Assembly (NCBI RefSeq): GCF_029962835.1
Contig: NC_080577.1
Coordinates: 28,254,501 to 28,318,500 of the forward strand
Source of the DNA: Magnolia sinica
Taxonomy: Eukaryota > Streptophyta > Magnoliopsida > Magnoliales > Magnoliaceae
Length of the DNA stretch: 64,000 nucleotides
Direction of reading: 5' to 3'
Below are positions 1-61,832 of this stretch, in pieces. Made by a program: the position numbers and the translations under genes. The notes under the pieces are model-generated. The model saw nothing but the letters and a program-made list of their open reading frames with translations, had not been told where the DNA came from and ran no database searches. Within the stretch, counting starts at the first letter, position 1, and each line of letters starts with the position of its first letter.

Positions 1-660
1 GTGGGTTTGCATATTTATATAATCCTCAAATATTACATATGTATAGTATTTTTACGGATATTTGGAAAGAGAAAACCAGATTAAATGCTTCAACCTAGGG
101 TTTGGGTCAAGGGTCGTCAGAACCTATCCAACACATGAAGTTTATAAGGATAGTTGGAAAGAGAAAATCCAATTAACCTAGGATTTGGGTCAAGGGTCGG
201 ATCTCACCTCTTAGTTGATTCTAGCGAACAACAAAGGAGTTCTTAGGCTATGATTCTAGCGAGGCACATGCATGAATCATAGCATAAGACTTTAGTACTG
301 AAATTTTCCGAACGGTTTATCTTCCGGTTCTCTTTGTGTTAGTTGTGTCAGGACACATGCATGCGGCCATAGCTACGAAAATTGGAAGAGAGCTCGAATT
401 TGTTACCTTTTATTAGCCACACTTCGCATCTGCTACGGTAGGACCGAGGTCTCCGGCGAATACACCCACACACACTTCGTCCATGTTGCTGGAATTGTTG
501 TAGGAGTGAGTGAAAGAGAGGGTTTAAAGGGTTTTATACCCTAGTTTTAGGTCAGTTGGCCCCGGCTTTCGCTAATTCACCCAAATGGCCTTGTTGGACT
601 TTATTCCGGTCACCATTTCTCAATCAAATGTCAGATTTGACTGCCCCGCTGCAAGGACAT
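1..660. other. Intergenic, no gene seen
   Basis: No coding segment is supported here. The only structure seen is a short imperfect direct repeat: about 50 bp starting near 61 recurs near 153, both containing GGAAAGAGAAAA followed by TTTGGGTCAAGGGTCG. It may be remnant retrotransposon or promoter-like sequence; nothing decides this. Confidence 0.5.
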
Positions 661-1056
661 ATCTTCAATATTCAAAGTGTAAATTTAGGAGGGATTGGAA
701 GTTAAATCCCGGGATTGGCCGGGCGTGCCAAACAGAGTTGGTGATCTGATTCCAATCCCACCGATCTTAAGACAATCCACTGACAACATCATCATTACCT
801 TTAAATCCCATCCAATCCATCCTAATCCGTTAAAATTTGCCAGGGACGTGTTTAGTTCGAGGGATTGGAAGGGATGGGAAGGTTTAATCCCGGGATTGGC
901 CGGGCGTGCCAAGCAGACTGGATGTAGCAATCCAGGGATATAGCAATCCCATGGATCTCAAGACAATCCACTGCCAACACCATCATTACCTAGAAATCCA
1001 TGCCATCCACCGTAATACCATTCAATCCCTTCCAAACCACCCAGCCAAATGGGCCC

Positions 1057-1248
1057 TAAAATCAGTGGGGCAAACTAGAATATCAGCGGGGGACACTACA
1101 AAAACAGCGGGGCAAACTAGAATATCAGCGGGGGACACTATAAAATCAGCGGGGCAAACTACAAAATCAGCGGGGGAAACTGAAAAATCAGCGGGGCAAA
1201 CTACAAAATTAGCGGAGGAAACTGAAAAATCAGTGGGGGAAACTATAA
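1057..1248. repeat. 21-bp minisatellite, locus 1
   Basis: Roughly nine tandem copies of a 21-bp unit, TCAGCGGGGCAAACTACAAAA with variants (GGGGGAAACT, GGGGGACACT). Because 21 is a multiple of three the + strand stays open and reads as a seven-residue repeat (SAGQTTK-like). I treat it as non-coding because the same unit is read in another frame at later loci. Confidence 0.85.
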
Positions 1249-1661
1249 GGGCCCGTTTGGCCAGTCGGATTGGAAGGGACTGGATGGTATTGGAAGGGAT
1301 TGGAAGTTAAATCCCGGGATTGGCCGGGCGTGCCAAACAGAGTCGGTGATCTAATCCCAATCCCACCGATCTTAAGACAATCCACTGACAACATCATCAT
1401 TACCTTTAAATTCCATCCAATCCATCCTAATCCGTTAAAATTTGCCAGGGACGTGTTTGGTTCGAGGGATTAGAAGGGATGGGAAGGTTTAATCTCGGGA
1501 TTGGCCGGGCATGCCAAGCAGACTGGATGTAGCAATCCAGGGATATAGCAATCCCATGGATCTCAAGACAATCCACTACCAACACCATCATTACCTAGAA
1601 ATCCATGCCATCCACCGTAATACCATTCAATCCCTTCCAAACCACCTTGCCAAACGGGCCC
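1249..1661. mobile_element. Tourist-like (PIF/Harbinger) MITE
   Basis: 413-bp element with perfect 13-bp terminal inverted repeats, GGGCCCGTTTGGC at 1249-1261 and its complement at 1649-1661. It is flanked by the 3-bp target duplication TAA (1246-1248 and 1662-1664). The TIR sequence and TAA target fit Tourist-type elements. No coding capacity. The duplicated copy to the left keeps the right TIR (1044-1056) but has lost the left one. Confidence 0.8.
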
Positions 1662-2000
1662 TAAAATCAACGGGGCAAACTAGAATATCAGCGGGGGACA
1701 CTACAAAAACAACGGGGCAAACTAGAATATCAGCGGGGGACACTATAAAATCAGCGGGGCAAACTACAAAATCAGCGGGGGAAACTGGAAAATCAGCGGG
1801 GCAAACTACAAAATCAGCGGGGGAAACTGGAAAATCAGCGGGGCAAACTACAAAATCAGCGGGGGAAACAGGAAAATCAGCGGGGCAAACTATAAACTCA
1901 GCGGGACAAACTACAAAATCAGTGGGAGATACTAGAAAATCAGTAAGGCAAACTACAAAATCAGCGGGGAAACTGTAAAATCAGCGGGGCAAACTATAAA
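1662..2000. repeat. 21-bp minisatellite, locus 2
   Basis: About 15 tandem 21-bp units of the TCAGCGGGGCAAACTACAAAA type, following the second MITE copy directly. Alternating GGGGCAAACT and GGGGGAAACT units suggest partial homogenisation as a 42-bp dimer. Confidence 0.85.
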
Positions 2001-2029
2001 TCTAGAATTTTTGCATGTCTATCATTTTA

Positions 2030-2275
2030 TGGCGTGAGCAAAAGAACGGATCAAATCTAAAGTTCAAGTGAACTCCACCATTTAAATAGTGGACAGTGAC
2101 ATCCACCGTTCGAACTTCTAAGGGCCACGGTAGTTTCCAATAAAGCTAATAATTGTTTTCATATCATCTATCTCTATGTTATCTTATGAATAGGTTGGGT
2201 CTCAAAATACATAAGGGTGGGCCCAATTTGAAAAACATTTGGCCCATTGATGTGGCCAATTTGATATACATTAGC
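2030..2275. mobile_element. MITE fragment (magnoliid-type family)
   Basis: Degraded internal part of the abundant MITE family: it keeps the segment for 'AAGTTCAAGTGRACYCCACCA', the 'GGGCCACGGTAG' segment and the 'ATCTTATGAATAGGTTGG' segment in family order, but no termini. The rest to 2935, including a short GT run near 2508-2522, shows no gene. Confidence 0.5.
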
Positions 2276-2935
2276 TTTGACATTACTATATGATTGCACG
2301 TCTAGGTGCCCATGTCCAAGTTCTTTATCTTCAATATCATTTACTTCCCCTCGCTTCCTCAACTCTTCACGCTCCTCCTCCATCACAAAACATCCCCTCC
2401 ATGTACGACTACATTCCTTCTCCTTAATAAACTCTTCTCTCTCATTCACTAACTTTTCCTATTTTTTGTTGTGCATGTTCCATTGTATTAATTTCCTGTT
2501 TTCTTGATGTGTGTGTGTGTGTGCAAAGAGACAATTTCGGCCGATATGAATCCTATAATCTGATACGCCCAGTATCGTATCATTTTAGGGCCTGGCTGAT
2601 ACAGTCACAGCATTATTTAAAACCTTCCTCAGAAGTCAGAAATCCTTCTTTATCATTTGAAGCAGCAATCTCGTGATGTGCTAGCCTGACACTCATGGAA
2701 ACTTCATTGTCCAACATTACCCAATTGGACCTCCATACTCCATGGAGTACTAATCAAGTGATAAAATGGATGTTATTTACGGTTTTGGTTTAATGGAGCT
2801 AACAGAGTTGAGTCAACTCCAGTGTCTCTCCATTGCCTAATCTCTAATAAACTCAACCAATCATCGTGGCTCTTACCTACGTTTATGCTTTAGCCCCAAT
2901 CCTTCCATCCCATTCATCCATCGCCACTTTCAAAT

Positions 2936-3330
2936 ATCAGCGGGGGAAACTAGGAAATGAGCGGGGCAAACTAGAAAATCAGCGGGGGAAACTAGAAAAT
3001 CAGCAGGGCAAACTAGAAAATCGAAAAGAAGTGGTAGTATCAACAAGAAGATGTTGTTTTCATCTACATTTATAGTTGGTGAATTGGTCATATTTTCTTT
3101 TTCAAGAGAGTTGTCATCTTTAAAGAGGCATGCCTAAACCCTTTTATAAAAACATAATAGTCAGCGGGGAAAACATGAAATTGAGGAGGGCAAACTAGAT
3201 AATCAGCGGGGCAAACTACAGATTCAGCAGGACAAATCATTAAAATCAGCGGGGCAAAGTAGAAAATCAGCGGGGGATACTAGAAAATCAGTGGGGGAAA
3301 CTAGGAAAATCAGCGGGGCAAAGTAGAATA
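2936..3330. repeat. 21-bp minisatellite, scattered blocks
   Basis: Two short runs of the 21-bp unit (about 2936-3020 and 3163-3330) in the form TCAGCGGGGGAAACTAGAAAA, separated by about 140 bp of unrelated sequence. Units are more diverged than at loci 1 and 2, with indels that break the 21-bp phase in the second run. An isolated related motif is visible near 3558. No gene is seen between 3331 and 3746. Confidence 0.7.
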
Positions 3331-3746
3331 TTCGTCGCCTGCAGAAATGAATTGAAAAACATATCAAACATAAAATTCATAAGATAAACATAGTGTACAA
3401 AATTGGAATCATTTCTAAAAACAATGTAGCATTTCATTAATTTGAGCAAGCTTCATATCAAATATAAATAGAAAATGAGCAAGGAAATACCAAAAATTGG
3501 ACGGAGACAAACAATCAACATAAGCTATACATTGATCGGAGCTAACAAGAAATTGGAAATTGAACAGGGCAAGCTGGACATTTTACCAAGTTCAACGTTG
3601 GCCAGTTTAGTGAACATTTATAGTGGTAGTATCAACAACAAGATGATATTTGCAACTACCTTTATAGTTGGTTCATTGGTCATATTTTCTTCTTGAAGAG
3701 AGTTGTCATCTTCAAAGAAGCAGGCCGAAATCATTATGCCCACTGT

Positions 3747-6700
3747 TTTCATCGCAATATGTATACACCAAAGCCCCATATGTGGAAGGGAACCTAGACA
3801 TTGAGGGTGGACACCTAGACATTCAGCGGGACAAACCTGAAATTGAACGGGGCAAACTAGAAGATGAGCGGGGGAGACTAGAAGATCAGCGGGGGAGACT
3901 AGAAGATCAGCGGGGCAAACTAGAAGATCAGCGGGGGAGACTAGAAGATCAGCGGGGGAGACTAGAAGATCAGCGGGGCAAACTAGAAGATCAGCGGGGG
4001 AGACTAGAAGATCAGCGGGGGAAACTAGAAGATCAGCGGGGGAGACTAGAAGATCAGCAGGGCAAACTCAACAAATAATTTCGTAGCTTGAGCCGAAAAA
4101 TCTAAACATATCCAATGTTCAAATGGACCACACCACAAGAAATTTTGAGTTGAACTTCTAATGTTGATCATTTCTTAGGGGCCACAGAAGTTTTGGTTCA
4201 AGCTTACAATTGTGTTTTCTATTAATCCATATATGTATGATCTTGTGAATAGGTTTGATAACAAACAAACATCACTGTTGGGTCGGCTATGGTTTCGGTG
4301 GTAGAAATCATTATGCCCACTCTTTCCCACGGTATGATCCACTTGATCTTTTGATATGCTTCGATTTGGGGGCTAGACCCCTCAAAATAAATGAAGAATC
4401 GGATGGACTGTGTGGATATATTACATACATTCATTGTGGGCCCAACTGAGTTTACATAGTACAATGGGAACATACTACTAACTCAGTACGCAATCCGATT
4501 ACGCTTGCTACGCCCCATGATGGTGTTTTATTTGTAATACATCATGTTCATCGGATTATGTAATGTCCATCCGTTTTCATCGCAATATGTATACACCAAA
4601 GCCCCATATGTGGAAGGGAACCTAGACATTGAGGGTGGACACCTAGATATTCAGCGGGGCAAACTAGAAGATCAGCGGGGGAGACTAGAAGATCAGCGGG
4701 GCAAACTAGAAGATCAGCGGGGGAGACTAGAAGATCAGCGGGGCAAACTCAACAAATAATTTCGGAGCTTGAGCCGAAAAATCTAAACATATCCAATGTT
4801 CAAATGGACCACACCACATGAAATTTTGAGTTGAACTTCTAATGTTAATCATTTCTTAGGGGCCACAGAAGTTTTGGTTCAAGCTTACAATTGTGTTTTC
4901 TATTAATCCATATATGTATGATCTTGTGAATAGGTTTGATAACAAACAAACATCACTGTTGGGCCGGCTATGGTTTCGGTGGTAGAAATCATTATGCCCA
5001 CTGTTTCCCACGGTATGATCCACTTGAACTTTTGATATGCTTCAATTTGGGGGCTAGACCCCTCAAAATAAATGAAGAATCGGATGGACTGTGTGGATAT
5101 ATTACATACATTCATTGTGGGCCCAACTAAGTTTACAGAGTACAATGGGAACGTACTACTAACTCAGTACGCAATCCGATTATGCTTGCTACGCCCCATG
5201 ATGGTGTTTTATTTGTAATACGTCATGTTCATCGGATTATGTAATGTCCATCCGTTTTCATCGTAATATGTATACACCAAAGCCCTATATGTGGAAGGGA
5301 ACCTAGACATTGAGGGTGGACACCTAGACATTCAGCTGGACAAACCTGAAATTCTGTGGGGCAAACTAGAAGATCAGTGGGGGAGACTAGAAGATCAGCG
5401 GGGCAAACTAGAAGATCAGCGGGGGAGACTAGAAGATCAGCGGGGCAAACTAGAAGATCAGCGGGGCAAACTCAACAAATAATTTCATAGCTTGAGCCGA
5501 AAAATCTAAACATATCCAATGTTCAAATGGACCACACCACATGAAATTTTGAGTTGAACTTCTAATGTTGATCATTTCTTAGGGGCTACAGAAGTTTTAG
5601 TTCAAGCTTACAATTGTGTTTTCTATTAATCCATATATGTATGATCTTGTGAATAGGTTTGATAACAAACAAACATCACTGTTGGGCCGGCTATGGTTTC
5701 GGTGGTAGAAATCATTATGCCCACTGTTTCCCATGGTATGATCCACTTGATCTTTTGATATGCTTCGATTTGGGGGCTAGAGCCCTCAAAATAAATGAAA
5801 AAACGGATGGACGGTGTGAATATATTACATACATTCATTGTGGGCCCAACTGAGTTTACATCGTACAATGGGAACGTACTACTAACTCAGTACGCAATCC
5901 GATTATGCTTGCTACGCCCCATGATGGTGTTTTATTTGTAATACATCATGTTCATCGGATTATGTAATGTCCATCCGTTTTCATCGCAATATGTATACAC
6001 CAAAGCCCCATATGTGGAAGAGAACCTAGACATTGAGGGTGGACACCTAGACATTCAGCGGGACAAACTTGAAATTGAACGGGGCAAACTAGAAGATCAG
6101 CGGGGGAGACTAGAAGATCAGCGGGGGAGACTAGAAGATCAGCGGGGCAAACTAGAAGATCAGCGGGGCAAACTAGAAGTTCAGCGGGGCAAACTCAACA
6201 AATAATTTCATAGCTTGAGCCGAAAAATCTAAACATATCCAATGTTCAAATGGACCACACCACATGAAATTTTGAGTTGAACTTCTAATGTTGATCATTT
6301 CTTAGGGGCCACAGAAGTTTTGGTTCAAGCTTACAATTGTGTTTTCTATTAATCCATATATGTATGATCTTGTGAATAGGTTTGATAACAAACAAACATC
6401 ACTGTTGGGCCGGCTATGGTTTCGGTGGTAGAAATCATTATGCCCACTGTTTCCCATGGTATGATCCACTTGATCTTTTGATATGCTTCGATTTGGGGGC
6501 TAGAGCCCTCAAAATAAATGAAAAAACGGATGGACGGTGTGGATATATTACATACATTCATTGTGGGCCCAACTGAGTTTACATAGTACAATGGGAACGT
6601 ACTACTAACTCAGTACGCAATCCGATTACGCTTGCTACGCCCCATGATGGTGTTTTATTTGTAATACATCATGTTCATCGGATTATGTAATGTCCATCCG

Positions 6701-7760
6701 TTTTCATCGCAATATGTATACACCAAAGCCCCATATGTGGAAGAGAACCTAGACATTGAGGGTGGACACCTAGACATTCAGCGGGACAAACCTGAAATTG
6801 AACGGGGCAAACTAGAAGATCAGCGGGGGAGACTAGAAGATCAGCGGGGCAAACTAGAAGATCAGCGGGGCAAACTCAACAAATAATTTCGTAGCTTGAG
6901 CCGAAAAATCTAAACATATCCAATGTTCAAATGGACCACACCACATGAAATTTTGAGTTGAACTTCTAATGTTGATCATTTATTAGGGGGCACAGAAGTT
7001 TTGGTTCAACCTTACAATTGTGTTTTCTATTAATCCATATATGTATGATCTTGTGAATAGGTTTGATAACAAACAAACATCACTGTTGAGCCGGCTATGG
7101 TTTCGGTGGTAGAAATCATTATGCCCACTGTTTCCCATGGTATGATCCACTTGATCTTTTGATATGCTTCGATTTGGGGGCTAGACCCCTCAAAATAAAT
7201 GAAAAAACGGATGGACGGTGTGGATATATTACATACATTCATTGTGGGCCCAACTGAGTTTACATAGTACAATGGGAACGTACTACTAACTCAGTACGCA
7301 ATCCGATTACGCTTGCTACGCCCTATGATGGTGTTTTATTTGTAATACATCATGTTCATTGGATTATGTAATGTCCATCCGTTTTTATCGCAATATGTAT
7401 ACACCAAAGCCCCATATGTGGAAGGGAACCTAGACATTGAGGGAGGACACCTAGACATTCAGTGGGACAAACATGAAATTGAACGGGGCAAACTAGAAGA
7501 TCAGTGGGGGAGACTAGAAGATCAATGGGGTAAACTAGAAAATCGCGAGGGAAACTAGAAGATCAATGGGCAAACTAGAAGATCAATGGGAGACTAGAAG
7601 ATCACGGCAAACTAGAAGCTCAATGGCAAACTAGAAGATCGCAGGCAAATTGAAAAATTAGCGGGCAAACTAGAAAATCAATGGGCAAACTTCAGAACGG
7701 GAGATTTTTGAAAATCAACGGCAAACATGAAAATAGTGGGGCAAACTTAACAAATAATTT
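3747..7760. repeat. Tandem array of ~0.7-kb units with 21-bp minisatellite core
   Basis: Units begin with TTTCATCGCAATATGTATAC at 3747, 4575, 5256, 5979, 6702 and (TTTTATCGC) 7383, giving periods of 828, 681, 723, 723 and 681 bp. Each unit has three parts: a unique ~90-bp leader; a block of 21-bp repeats (core CTAGAAGATCAGCGGGGCAAA); and the right half of a MITE ending in CTCAGTACGCAATCCGATTA. The period differences are exactly 42 or 147 bp, i.e. 2 or 7 minisatellite units. Block sizes are about 10, 3-4, 5, 5, 3 and 2 repeats. The sixth block decays after about 7540, with indels. The open + strand frame in each block reads LEDQRGK/LEDQRGR. Confidence 0.9.
3842..4077. repeat. Largest 21-bp minisatellite block
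   Basis: About ten tandem copies of the 21-bp unit in the first 0.7-kb unit, alternating between GGGGCAAACTAGAAGATCAGC and GGGGGAGACTAGAAGATCAGC types. The + strand is open throughout and ends at a TAA shared by all array units. There is no upstream splice or promoter context that would make it a gene. Confidence 0.85.
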
Positions 7761-7789
7761 CGTATCTTGTTGAAAATTTTAAACATATC

Positions 7790-8143
7790 CAAGGTTGAAA
7801 TGGAATGTTAAAATTGACCACACCACATGAAATTTTGAATTGACCTTCTAATGGTGCTCGTTACTTAGGGGCCACAGAAGTTTTGGATCAAGCTTATAAT
7901 TGTGTTTTCTATTAATCCATATATGTATGATCTTATGAATAGGTTTGATAACAAACAATCATCACCGTTGGGCCGGCTATGGTTTCGGCGGTAGAAATCA
8001 TTATGCCCACTGTTTCCCATGGCATGATCCACTTGATCTTTTGATATGCTTCAATTTGGGGGCTAAACCCCTTAAAATAAATGGATAAATGGATGGACAG
8101 CGTGGATATACTACATACATTCAATGTGGGCCCAACTGAGTTA
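7790..8143. mobile_element. Terminal MITE half-unit of the array
   Basis: Last copy of the MITE half found in each array unit, more diverged than the others (for example CATCACCGTTGGGCCGG, and ATGGATAAATGGATGG in place of the usual spacer). It ends at GTGGGCCCAACTGAGTT next to the following MITE. Confidence 0.7.
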
Positions 8144-8153
8144 AATATAAAAG

Positions 8154-8686
8154 GGAAATGGATTGGCTACTCCCCGCCACTAGCCTCGTGGTCAGTGGTC
8201 GGTGCTCTGTGGGCCCTACCATGATGTATGTGTTTCATCCATTCCGTTCATCCATTTTTAAAGATCATTTTAGGTCTTGATCCCAAAAATGAGAGGTATA
8301 TAAATCTCAGGTGGACCACACCACAAGAAAACAATAGTGATTGGAAATCCATCATTTAAGTCCTCCTAGGCCCACTGTACTGTTTGTTTGACATCCAATA
8401 TGTTGATTAGGTCATAAATATCCAGATGAAGGGAAAAAAACAAAGATCAACTTGATCCAATACTTTTATGGCCCCAAAAAGTTTTTAATGGTCGAAGTTC
8501 ATTTAACATTGTTTCCTGTAATGTGGTCCCCTTGAGACTGATATATATCTCATTTTTTGTTTATTACTATAAATTGATCTAGAAAAATAGATGGACGGAA
8601 TGGATGAAAAACATACATTATTATGGGGCCCACAGAGCACCGACCACCAGCCATTGGCTGGCATTGGGAGTAGCCAATCCGTTTCC
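8154..8686. mobile_element. MULE-like MITE with 9-bp TSD
   Basis: 533-bp non-coding element. Inverted termini are GGAAATGGATTGGCTACTCC at the left and GGAGTAGCCAATCCGTTTCC at the right. It is flanked by ATATAAAAG (8145-8153) and ATATAGAAG (8687-8695), an 8-of-9 match. A 9-bp duplication is characteristic of Mutator-like elements. The interior has the family core (GGGCCCTACCATGATGTATG, CCATCCATTTTT motif and their complements), so the whole element can fold into a long hairpin. Confidence 0.75.
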
Positions 8687-8699
8687 ATATAGAAGGTGG

Positions 8700-8870
8700 G
8701 GTCCTTAATATTGCTAGGGTGGTCACGTCTCAGTAGTTTCAACTCCCGGTCAGGAGTTCGAGTGCCATGGGTGGTGAAATTCCACCAGCGTGAGTGTGCG
8801 CGGTGTGTGTGCAGCGTGAGTTTGTGCGGTGTGTGTCTGTCCGTGTGTAATAATAATAAAATAATATATA
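8700..8870 (+). mobile_element. Possible tRNA-derived SINE
   Basis: Contains a B-box-like GGAGTTCGAGTGCC at about 8751 and a GTGTGTG-rich tail running into TAATAATAA and an AT run. The layout resembles the better-supported SINE at 46497. The A box is unclear and no target duplication was found. Confidence 0.35.
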
Positions 8871-9744
8871 TATATATACCTGTCTTGTGTACTTTCTTCG
8901 CTGGACCCACCGTTTCAAGAAGAAAAGATGAAATGCTGATAAGGGGCCGACAAAAAGGGTGTTTTTTTGGGTCTTTCTACGGGAAATGCAGTGGGGAAAT
9001 GGGGGTGAAAGCAACGGCAGGGAAAGCGGCAGCAGAAAGGGAGGGGAAAAGCAAAGAGAGGAAATGGAGAGGAAGAGTCGTTTCCGTCAGGAGGAGGGGT
9101 ATTTTCGTCCTGAAATTCCGACTCCGTACGAGGAGGTCCAACTGCGTATTCTAAGTTTGTATTGCTTCAAAAAAACCGCTGGATAAAAGGTGGGGTCCAT
9201 AGTCGTAAATTTCTCTCGGATGAGCTCCAGGGCTTTCGTGTCGTCCTTAGGCAGGACGAGTGGGGCCCATCTTTCAATAATCATGACCCTATTCTAATCG
9301 ATCGCATGATGGATGGATTATTATCAAGTACTTCCTATATTGATAGACTTTAGCCACCAAATTCTAGGCTTTTTATTAAAAAAAAATATTTTTAGTTGAA
9401 TATGGACCGTTGGTATTTTTTGTTCTTAACCGCATATTTCTAGACCACAAATCAAATAGATAATATGATCTTCTCGACCATAATTTTCTTACACACTCCA
9501 TCTATAATGGGATGCAACATTCCAATGGTCTGGATTACTGAAGAACGGGCCCACATATGCAAAAAAGATCAGTGGTGTACGTCCGTCCTCTAAGCCCTTC
9601 TCCATCCATATTTCCTTTCGATGACCGTATACGGCCCAAATCCAACTGAACTCGTACGTACCTAAAACGAATACGTCGAGACGTACTGTACAAAACTTTA
9701 TACCCCTGGGAGCGGAATAGGTGCCGCCGCCGGCTCCCACAAAA
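8871..9744. other. Intergenic, no gene seen
   Basis: Purine-rich stretch near 8990-9090 and several GGGGCCCA or GGGGTCCA motifs reminiscent of MITE edges (9190-9270). No coding exon or complete repeat could be delimited. Confidence 0.4.
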
Positions 9745-17100: not shown

Positions 17101-18635
17101 ACCTTCAATGACTTGCTCATAAAATGCTATTTTCACAGTTTTAGAGACTTCTTTGTCATGATGGAGGAAAATGTAATGTTTGTTTGGTTTGTGAAGTTAC
17201 GATATTTACCTGTTTTCCATTCCTATATGCAGAGTGAGATGATGTCAGAATCGCTTGACAATGTCTTAGATGATGATGAGGCCGAAGAGGAAACTGAGGA
17301 ACTGACTAACCAGGTAAACGTCGCCTTTATTTAATACCGGAATCTGCTCTATGGAGCTAACCATGTCATGAGTGTTTCAGAAGTAGAGGATGGGATTAGT
17401 AGTTTTAATCAGTACACTGCATTGATTAACAATTTATTCATTGTTGTCTTTAGATATTCTGTCAGTAATTTCATGCTTTGCTGGCCCCAAATATCTGGGA
17501 CGGGCTACAATGATAATCTTTAACTTCATTGCTTACTCTTTCTCAGGTTCTAGATGAAATCGGTGTTGATGTTGCATCACAGGTAGGCTTCAGCATTTGT
17601 CTAGGCTCTTTTGATATTTGTTTAGTTTACAATGTTTTAACAAAGCTGACTCCGGTTACCTTGAAATTCTTAACAGTTGTCTTCAGCTCCCAAGGGAAGA
17701 ATTGCAGGGAAGAAGAGCGAGGATGTTGGAAGGTATACCTACTTTGTAATTTCTTATTTGTTTCTTTGTTTTGTTATTGAGGAGTCTAGCTTACAATACT
17801 TGCTGGGAACTATTCCTCTGGTCTCAATAAGCTATGGTGTGCTAGTGATAAAGAGATTTACTTTGGTTTCAGCACAGCCCTCAGTTAGGATTAGTAAATT
17901 ATTAAATGGAAGTAATTCATAATTATCTGGTTAGGATCGATCTAAACCAGCCCTTTCTGTTTATGATTTAGCATGCTGACTGTTAAACAATTTATTAGAA
18001 ACACAAGGCAGCCGATAAGAAGTGTTGCGAAGTCTGCAGCTCTTTGAGGATTTCGTCAATGTTGAGGAATATGTACGACTCGTTCAGATCATGAGCTATA
18101 ACAAACGAGACAATTTTCCCATATCAATGTCTGGTACCAATAAATAGGATAGAATGAAAGAACTCCATTCACTATCAATAAAAAAAAATTTATCTTATAC
18201 CTCTATAGTATGGAATTTATGGTTTCCACTGGTGCAAATCCAATCACGTTGATTTGAGATGAAAAGCAATTCCCCATTCATAGCAATGGTAATCCATTAA
18301 GCAGGGAAAATGGTATTTAAGAAAAGGAAAGTTCATGCTTCTACTCTTGCAAGACCAAACTAACAGGGTTATCTACCTAGCCAACCTTGATAATTAAATG
18401 CCGTCACTGTATGAATAAATCTCATTGTGAAAAGACCTATGCAACAATAAGAAGGAAAAGGATTTGAATTGAGGAACTCCTGAGCATTTGGTGATCTTAG
18501 ATGTGTCCATCTCAATGGAACGGGTGATTCATTATAATTGAATCATTTCTAGTCCACTCAGCCATCTCTCCCAGTTACAAAAGGATAATTCATATGTGAT
18601 GTGTGAGGTAATGATTGATAAAAGTCATTCTTTAT

Positions 18636-32961: not shown

Positions 32962-56737
<23,776 letters not shown>

Positions 56738-61425: not shown

Positions 61426-61563
61426 TGCAGGCCGAACTTTTATGGCCCGATTAGGCAGGCATTTCTGCACAACCTTTTCAGTACTAGTGTTGTGGCCCAG
61501 TGTGATCAGTGGGGTTAGCAACACCCAAAACGTTCCTGTGGTCAGGAGCTAAGTAGAGCATAG

Positions 61564-61832
61564 AAATCCACTCCGTTCATCTGTTTGCGGCTTATGATGG
61601 AACATGGCTCATTTTGTGAGAAATCCACTTCGTTCATCTGTTTGTGGCTTACAATGGAACATAGCTCATTTTGTGAGAAATCCACTCCGTTCATCTGTCC
61701 GTGGCTTATGATTGAACATGACGCATTTTGTGAGAAATTCATTTGTTTGCCGGCTTATGATGGAACATGGCCCATTTTGTGAGAAATCCACTAGGTTCAT
61801 TTGTTGGCTTTCGATGGAACATGGCCCAAAAA
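61564..61832. repeat. 57-bp minisatellite
   Basis: About five tandem units starting AAATCCACTCCGTTCATCTG at 61564, 61621, 61678, 61735 and 61784. Periods are 57, 57, 57 and 49 bp. Since 57 is a multiple of three, frames stay open on both strands across the array; there is no sign these are expressed. 61833-62234 holds only weak MITE-like fragments. Confidence 0.9.

Follow-up and report, generated by a model that had tools for sequence, protein, structure and literature searches.

A two-level tandem array in the right part of a Mutator-like element of Magnolia sinica, probably dispersed by transposition

The window analyzed here, a stretch of 64,000 nucleotides from Magnolia sinica, contains near its left edge a tandem array of six units of about 0.7 kb, each of which carries an internal block of 21-bp repeats. 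An earlier reading of this stretch, made from its letters only (the sequence-only reading), attributed the array to tandem duplication at this place. We determined that the same type of array is found at many sites of the genome and that, in the window, it lies within a large Mutator-like element (MULE). Our principal conclusion, to which we assign a probability of roughly 0.86, is that the array belongs to the inner sequence of a non-coding, 17.3-kb member of a large Mutator-like family, where it lies in the right part, and that it was dispersed by transposition.

Head anchors at window positions 3761, 4589, 5270, 5993, 6716 and 7397 delimit five regular units on the forward strand, U1 (3761–4588, 828 bp), U2 (4589–5269, 681 bp), U3 (5270–5992, 723 bp), U4 (5993–6715, 723 bp) and U5 (6716–7396, 681 bp), followed on the same strand by a diverged terminal unit with decayed 21-mers, U6 (7397–8144), recognized by unit alignment and 21-mer spacing. 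The five periods (828, 681, 723, 723 and 681 bp) reported by the sequence-only reading, with their differences of whole 21-bp steps, were thereby recovered, and all five fall into a single residue class modulo 21. When body and block were measured separately, the body was 522 bp long in all five regular units, while the 21-mer block measured 306 bp in U1 (counted from the head anchor), 159 bp in U2, 201 bp in both U3 and U4, and 159 bp in U5; every length step in the window therefore falls within the 21-mer block, and alignment of the units showed that U1 to U5 differ in length only by whole 21-mers. The further claim that the units are nearly identical outside the block is accurate for U1 to U5, whose bodies share 96–99% identity (99% between U3 and U4), and does not extend to U6, which is only 92.3% identical to U4 across 339 bp, lacks the final part of the unit, stopping early at 8144, and has a block of 350 bp in which the 21-mers have decayed to a spacing of 18–20 bp over much of the length. 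The 21-mer can also be read as a protein-coding heptad (QRGKLED); with a second frame also open and column variation without a codon pattern, this was rejected as the main account.

The unit body, 3' of the 21-mer block, aligns at 71–74% over about 390–420 bp to sequences resembling miniature inverted-repeat transposable elements (MITEs) located in the window near 37.2, 42.0 and 60.3 kb. One such MITE-like copy (37121–37642) has 20-bp inverted ends, and its right terminus is also present in the array unit. Judged from these alignments, the unit appears to combine the greater part of a MITE-like sequence with a block of 21-bp repeats; the earlier description, "half MITE plus minisatellite", was thus roughly right, except that the body corresponds to most of such a sequence rather than to half of it. 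The idea, formed by eye only, that each unit consists of two abutting MITEs with a 9-bp joint was dropped because fuller MITE-like copies in the window reveal the supposed second end to be the right terminus of the MITE itself. To the right of U6 lies a separate MITE (8154–8686, forward strand) with 21-bp inverted ends and the flanks ATATAAAAG and ATATAGAAG, a 9-bp duplication that agrees at eight of nine bases; it is absent from five of the 20 other array loci that we compared (see below).

The array lies within a MULE of 17,273 bp, in its right third; the right part of this element covers window positions 1–9215 on the forward strand. Its left end, GAGAAATTTACG, was read in the adjoining DNA and starts 8,057 bp to the left of window position 1 (C5:28246443). 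The right terminal inverted repeat lies at 9079–9215 (forward strand), and the inverted ends extend over about 138 bp, comprising 79 bp at 93.7% and, farther out, 59 bp that were read from the alignment. The element is bounded by a 9-bp target duplication, the right copy of which, TCGGATGAG, lies at 9216–9224 and matches the left copy, TCGAATGAG, located outside the window, at eight of nine bases. The window copy retains a 281-bp stretch, at 91.8%, overlapping the 3' end of the transposase frame of a related copy on C9, and is taken as non-coding. Pfam searches with four of its frames outside the window returned neither ULP1 nor DUF1985, the only match being to AgrB (19.9 bits, cut-off 23), which we took as chance, and a fifth peptide, inside the window, had no match. 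No additional inner copy of the terminal repeat was found in the window element.

Two related copies were delimited at both ends: one on C9 (C9:75007416–75030605, 23,190 bp) and one on C19 (C19:7795528–7806746, 11,219 bp). Their 137-bp terminal repeats are 98.5% and 96.4% identical, respectively, to the right end in the window. Including the window element, 9-bp target duplications flank all three copies with both outer ends read: AATATGCTA and ATTATGCTA at the C9 copy (8/9 bases) and TTAAGTTAC on both sides of the C19 copy (9/9). Five further end pairs could not be used for target duplications, as one flank was constant and the end was taken as internal; for the same reason, facing end pairs of 4.2–16.6 kb were rejected as whole elements, and the true left ends of the C9 and C19 copies were placed farther outward than the facing-pair ends.

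The C9 copy contains an open frame of 811 amino acids for a MuDR-type transposase, with Pfam matches to PF10551 (MULE, 7.8e-20), PF03108 (MuDR DNA-binding, 9.9e-15), PF00872 (9.1e-12) and PF04434 (SWIM, 1.9e-6), and, on the opposite strand, matches to the ULP1 protease (PF02902, 2.1e-21) and DUF1985 (PF09331, 1.1e-8; 35.5 bits, cut-off 35.1). Its matches to Transposase_32 (16.4 and 18.2 bits, cut-off 45) and DUF4820 were below the cut-offs and were not relied on. The marks of a MULE, namely (i) long terminal inverted repeats; (ii) a 9-bp target duplication; and (iii) a transposase encoded by a family member, are all found.

Both the C9 and the C19 copy possess an extra inner copy of the terminal repeat, in that the right arm recurs within each element in inverted orientation (2.48 kb at 96.7% in C9; about 1.8–1.9 kb at 94% in C19). 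In these two copies (L031–L033), the inverted inner arm includes a unit and a 21-mer block, resulting in a large imperfect palindrome. The arms of C19 hold one 21-mer block each; therefore, single-unit arms exist. With regard to a foldback structure, which has kilobase-long inverted arms with internal tandem repeats, C19 carries inverted arms of 1.8–1.9 kb in its right part, and its outermost inverted match spans 137 bp.

Outside the array, the window element carries further forward-strand 21-mer blocks at 1058–1245, 1663–2000 and 2936–3022, as well as an irregular one at 3161–3328, detected as a repeat and by its 21-mer spacing. Within the same element, another tandem duplication (about 605 bp) occupies window positions 690–1850 and is formed by a GGGCCCGTTTGG-ended MITE-like piece plus a 21-mer block (369 bp at 96.7%). 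Additional 21-mer blocks were observed in the left half of the element (stretch L029), at 1489–1944 and 2950–3160, both in inverse orientation, and at 5724–6100.

When a 954-bp array query was compared with the Magnolia sinica genome (1.84 Gb, 127 contigs), 217 matches were obtained; sites were grouped from the listed matches, and genome-wide scoring took in 35 of 5775 candidates. Among the matches listed, the array is present at no fewer than 35 sites on 16 contigs (at least 35). The right end of the element lies just downstream at 24 of the 35 listed sites, 19 of them identified from the grouped matches and five more from the locus comparison below, and five further sites have a transposase match without a seen right end. 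Using 42 of 67 transposase match rows, we found that 15 of the 35 arrays have such a match within 30 kb on their upstream side and on the same strand, with 0.0005 expected per array. We extracted 20 of the further array loci and compared them with the window, giving 21 loci in all. At 14 of the 20, homology to the window runs to TTTCTC, which ends at window position 9215, after which the flanks differ; among the remaining loci, four of the extracted stretches finish before position 9215 and two drop homology earlier. At L016, homology extends to window position 9199. The number of head anchors per locus ranges from 1 to 9 in a strict search and from 4 to 11 in a loose one, and none of the 21 loci shows a satellite-like long array of very many monomers.

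Length change at two levels is evident across the family. Of the 78 periods measured in the other 20 loci, 36 fall into the residue class of the window modulo 21, and 46 lie within 1 bp of it, while an even spread over the 21 classes would give about four. Whole 21-mer steps are nonetheless not a strict rule of the family: 18 of the 78 periods have residues of 9–11, which we explain by a body shortened by about 53 bp (body length is 521–523 bp in 55 of 95 units and 466–472 bp in 24), and nine have a residue of 20, which would fit a 1-bp change. The block of the last regular unit falls on a ladder of 138/139, 158/159, 181, 201–203 and 222–224 bp in 15 of the 21 loci; the other six blocks measure 172, 189, 191, 257, 286 and 328 bp, of which the 286- and 328-bp blocks are likewise whole 21-bp steps from 202. 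Based on the residue classes and the block ladder, whole-unit change is separable from 21-mer change. The proposal of two superposed levels of change, made by the sequence-only reading for this one array, is thus borne out, as related copies differ by whole units in order.

To trace the units, we compared 95 unit bodies from the 21 loci; for counts of closest relatives, four long-branch outliers were removed, leaving 91. Median body identity hardly differs within loci (0.967) and between loci (0.960). When the closest body at any other locus was sought for each last unit, it also proved to be a last unit in 15 of the 21 loci; with the label "last" shuffled within loci, the count averaged 4.6 over 2000 trials and peaked at 13.2, and no trial reached 15. 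The units of L009, L010, L017 and L020 follow the unit order of the window, with different unit numbers. Between L009 and L010, five of six units form one-to-one pairs, the sixth of L009 being slightly nearer to the fifth of L010. Since units are matched by position between copies, most of the array predates the spread of the copies.

Several observations weigh against this account. At five of the 35 sites, neither an element end nor a transposase was found in the material examined, and 20 of the 35 arrays have no transposase match among the 42 rows used. The target duplication is imperfect, 8/9, in two of the three copies, and no transposase frame was seen in the window copy. For six of the 21 last units, the closest relative elsewhere is not a last unit, and the likeness of L009 and L010, which lie 0.18 Mb apart on one contig, may reflect a segmental copy. 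Moreover, about 25 of the 91 units (24.7, with ties shared) are closest to a unit of their own locus; before removal of the outliers the count was 25 of 95, compared with a shuffle mean of 4.0. Because this exceeds the shuffle, some local duplication or conversion took place after insertion, most clearly in L018.

These own-locus pairs, together with the likeness and tandem order of U1 to U5 and the 99% identity of U3 and U4, are what would be expected had a half-MITE/minisatellite chimera been duplicated in tandem at this site and then altered by slippage. As the origin of the array, such a local event is contradicted: the same type of array occurs at the 35 listed sites and belongs to an element with defined ends, last units pair with last units across loci, and bodies are almost as similar between loci as within them. 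We therefore consider it highly improbable as the source of the array, although it may explain single units. A secondary association, in which the element captured a pre-existing satellite array or landed next to satellites, has a precedent in the satellite capture proposed for a CACTA element (PMC8978399), and 21-mer blocks do occur in other contexts elsewhere in the element. However, the position of the array just upstream of the right end at most listed sites, the single-unit arms of C19 with their 21-mer block, and the absence of any long free array among the matches listed make this very unlikely. Tandem repeats are difficult to assemble, and repeats could have been collapsed or expanded in error; since the array recurs at 35 sites with differing unit numbers, and the unit sequences differ as well, we regard this as the least credible explanation, with a negligible chance of being correct.

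Under transposition of a Mutator-like family carrying the array, a MITE-like plus 21-mer unit would have been duplicated head to tail within one arm of an ancestral element, and transposition would then have carried the ready-made array to many chromosomes. Non-coding copies, such as that in the window, were presumably moved by a transposase of the family such as that of C9. Whole units were later gained and lost, presumably by unequal exchange between misaligned units or by template switching between them in gap repair. The 21-mer blocks, too, were later altered by whole repeats, probably through slippage or unequal exchange.

We also considered, as a doubtful proposition, that the transposon makes use of its two-level array, the units and 21-mers of one arm being putative binding or promoter sites present in many copies; additional binding sites have been suggested for Galileo and Tetris (PMC4079207). 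If this were true, more units could mean more recognition or expression, array size could be tuned per copy, and the family would scatter self-expanding "satellite seeds".

The remainder of the window contains several unrelated features. A 295-bp sequence is tandemly duplicated at 99% at 50847–51438, and a 57-bp tandem repeat with 4.8 copies lies at 61562–61825. Positions 18221–18316 match the plastid rps12 3'UTR RNA family (83 bits, cut-off 78), perhaps representing plastid DNA in the nucleus. An open frame of 171 amino acids at 39649–40164 resembles, by eye, a piece of a hAT-type transposase.

It is known that DNA transposons can carry tandem arrays within or close to their arms, and MULEs with additional terminal repeats or with ULP1 have likewise been described; the comparisons that follow extend as far as the available parts of the sources describe these systems. 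A MULE with a two-level array was not found in the open-license literature, judged mostly by title and the start of the abstract, which is weak evidence of absence. Here, a higher-order tandem array is linked to a family of transposons with many copies in one genome, one of which has an open transposase frame. While the origin of satellites from transposons is usually inferred afterwards, the dispersed copies allow units to be matched one by one, so that separate rates could be measured for whole-unit and for 21-mer change. As this case illustrates, the cargo of a mobile element can be misread as a local event when tandem repeats are interpreted from one site.

The multi-terminal-inverted-repeat MULEs of Ferguson and Jiang (2012; PMC3310237) share with the Magnolia family long inverted ends and a target duplication, and the extra inner arm copy of C9 and C19 resembles their solo additional repeat; however, it is the terminal repeat that is duplicated there, while the arm of the Magnolia family holds a tandem array whose units, of about 0.7 kb, contain a 21-bp repeat. 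The ULP1 and DUF1985 matches opposite the C9 transposase recall KAONASHI and other ULP1-bearing MULEs (PMC2528002). KI-MULEs are described as lacking terminal inverted repeats, whereas inverted ends are present in the Magnolia element; the same source also mentions TIR-MULEs with ULP in melon and grapevine. A MITE of Porphyromonas gingivalis also contains a minisatellite within a small mobile element (PMC4596501), but it is bacterial. The CACTA element of Chenopodium quinoa (PMC8978399) is, similarly, a large DNA transposon of a plant; it measures 16,523 bp, and several copies share a tandem array located close to the 3' end. It belongs to another superfamily, and its 171-bp monomer is single-level and described as captured. 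Tetris, a foldback transposon of Drosophila virilis (PMC4079207), has a single-level repeat, its coding parent was not found according to that source, and it gave rise to long satellite arrays, none of which were seen for the Magnolia family; like the Magnolia arrays, however, its repeats from different arrays intermix, for which unequal crossing over was proposed.
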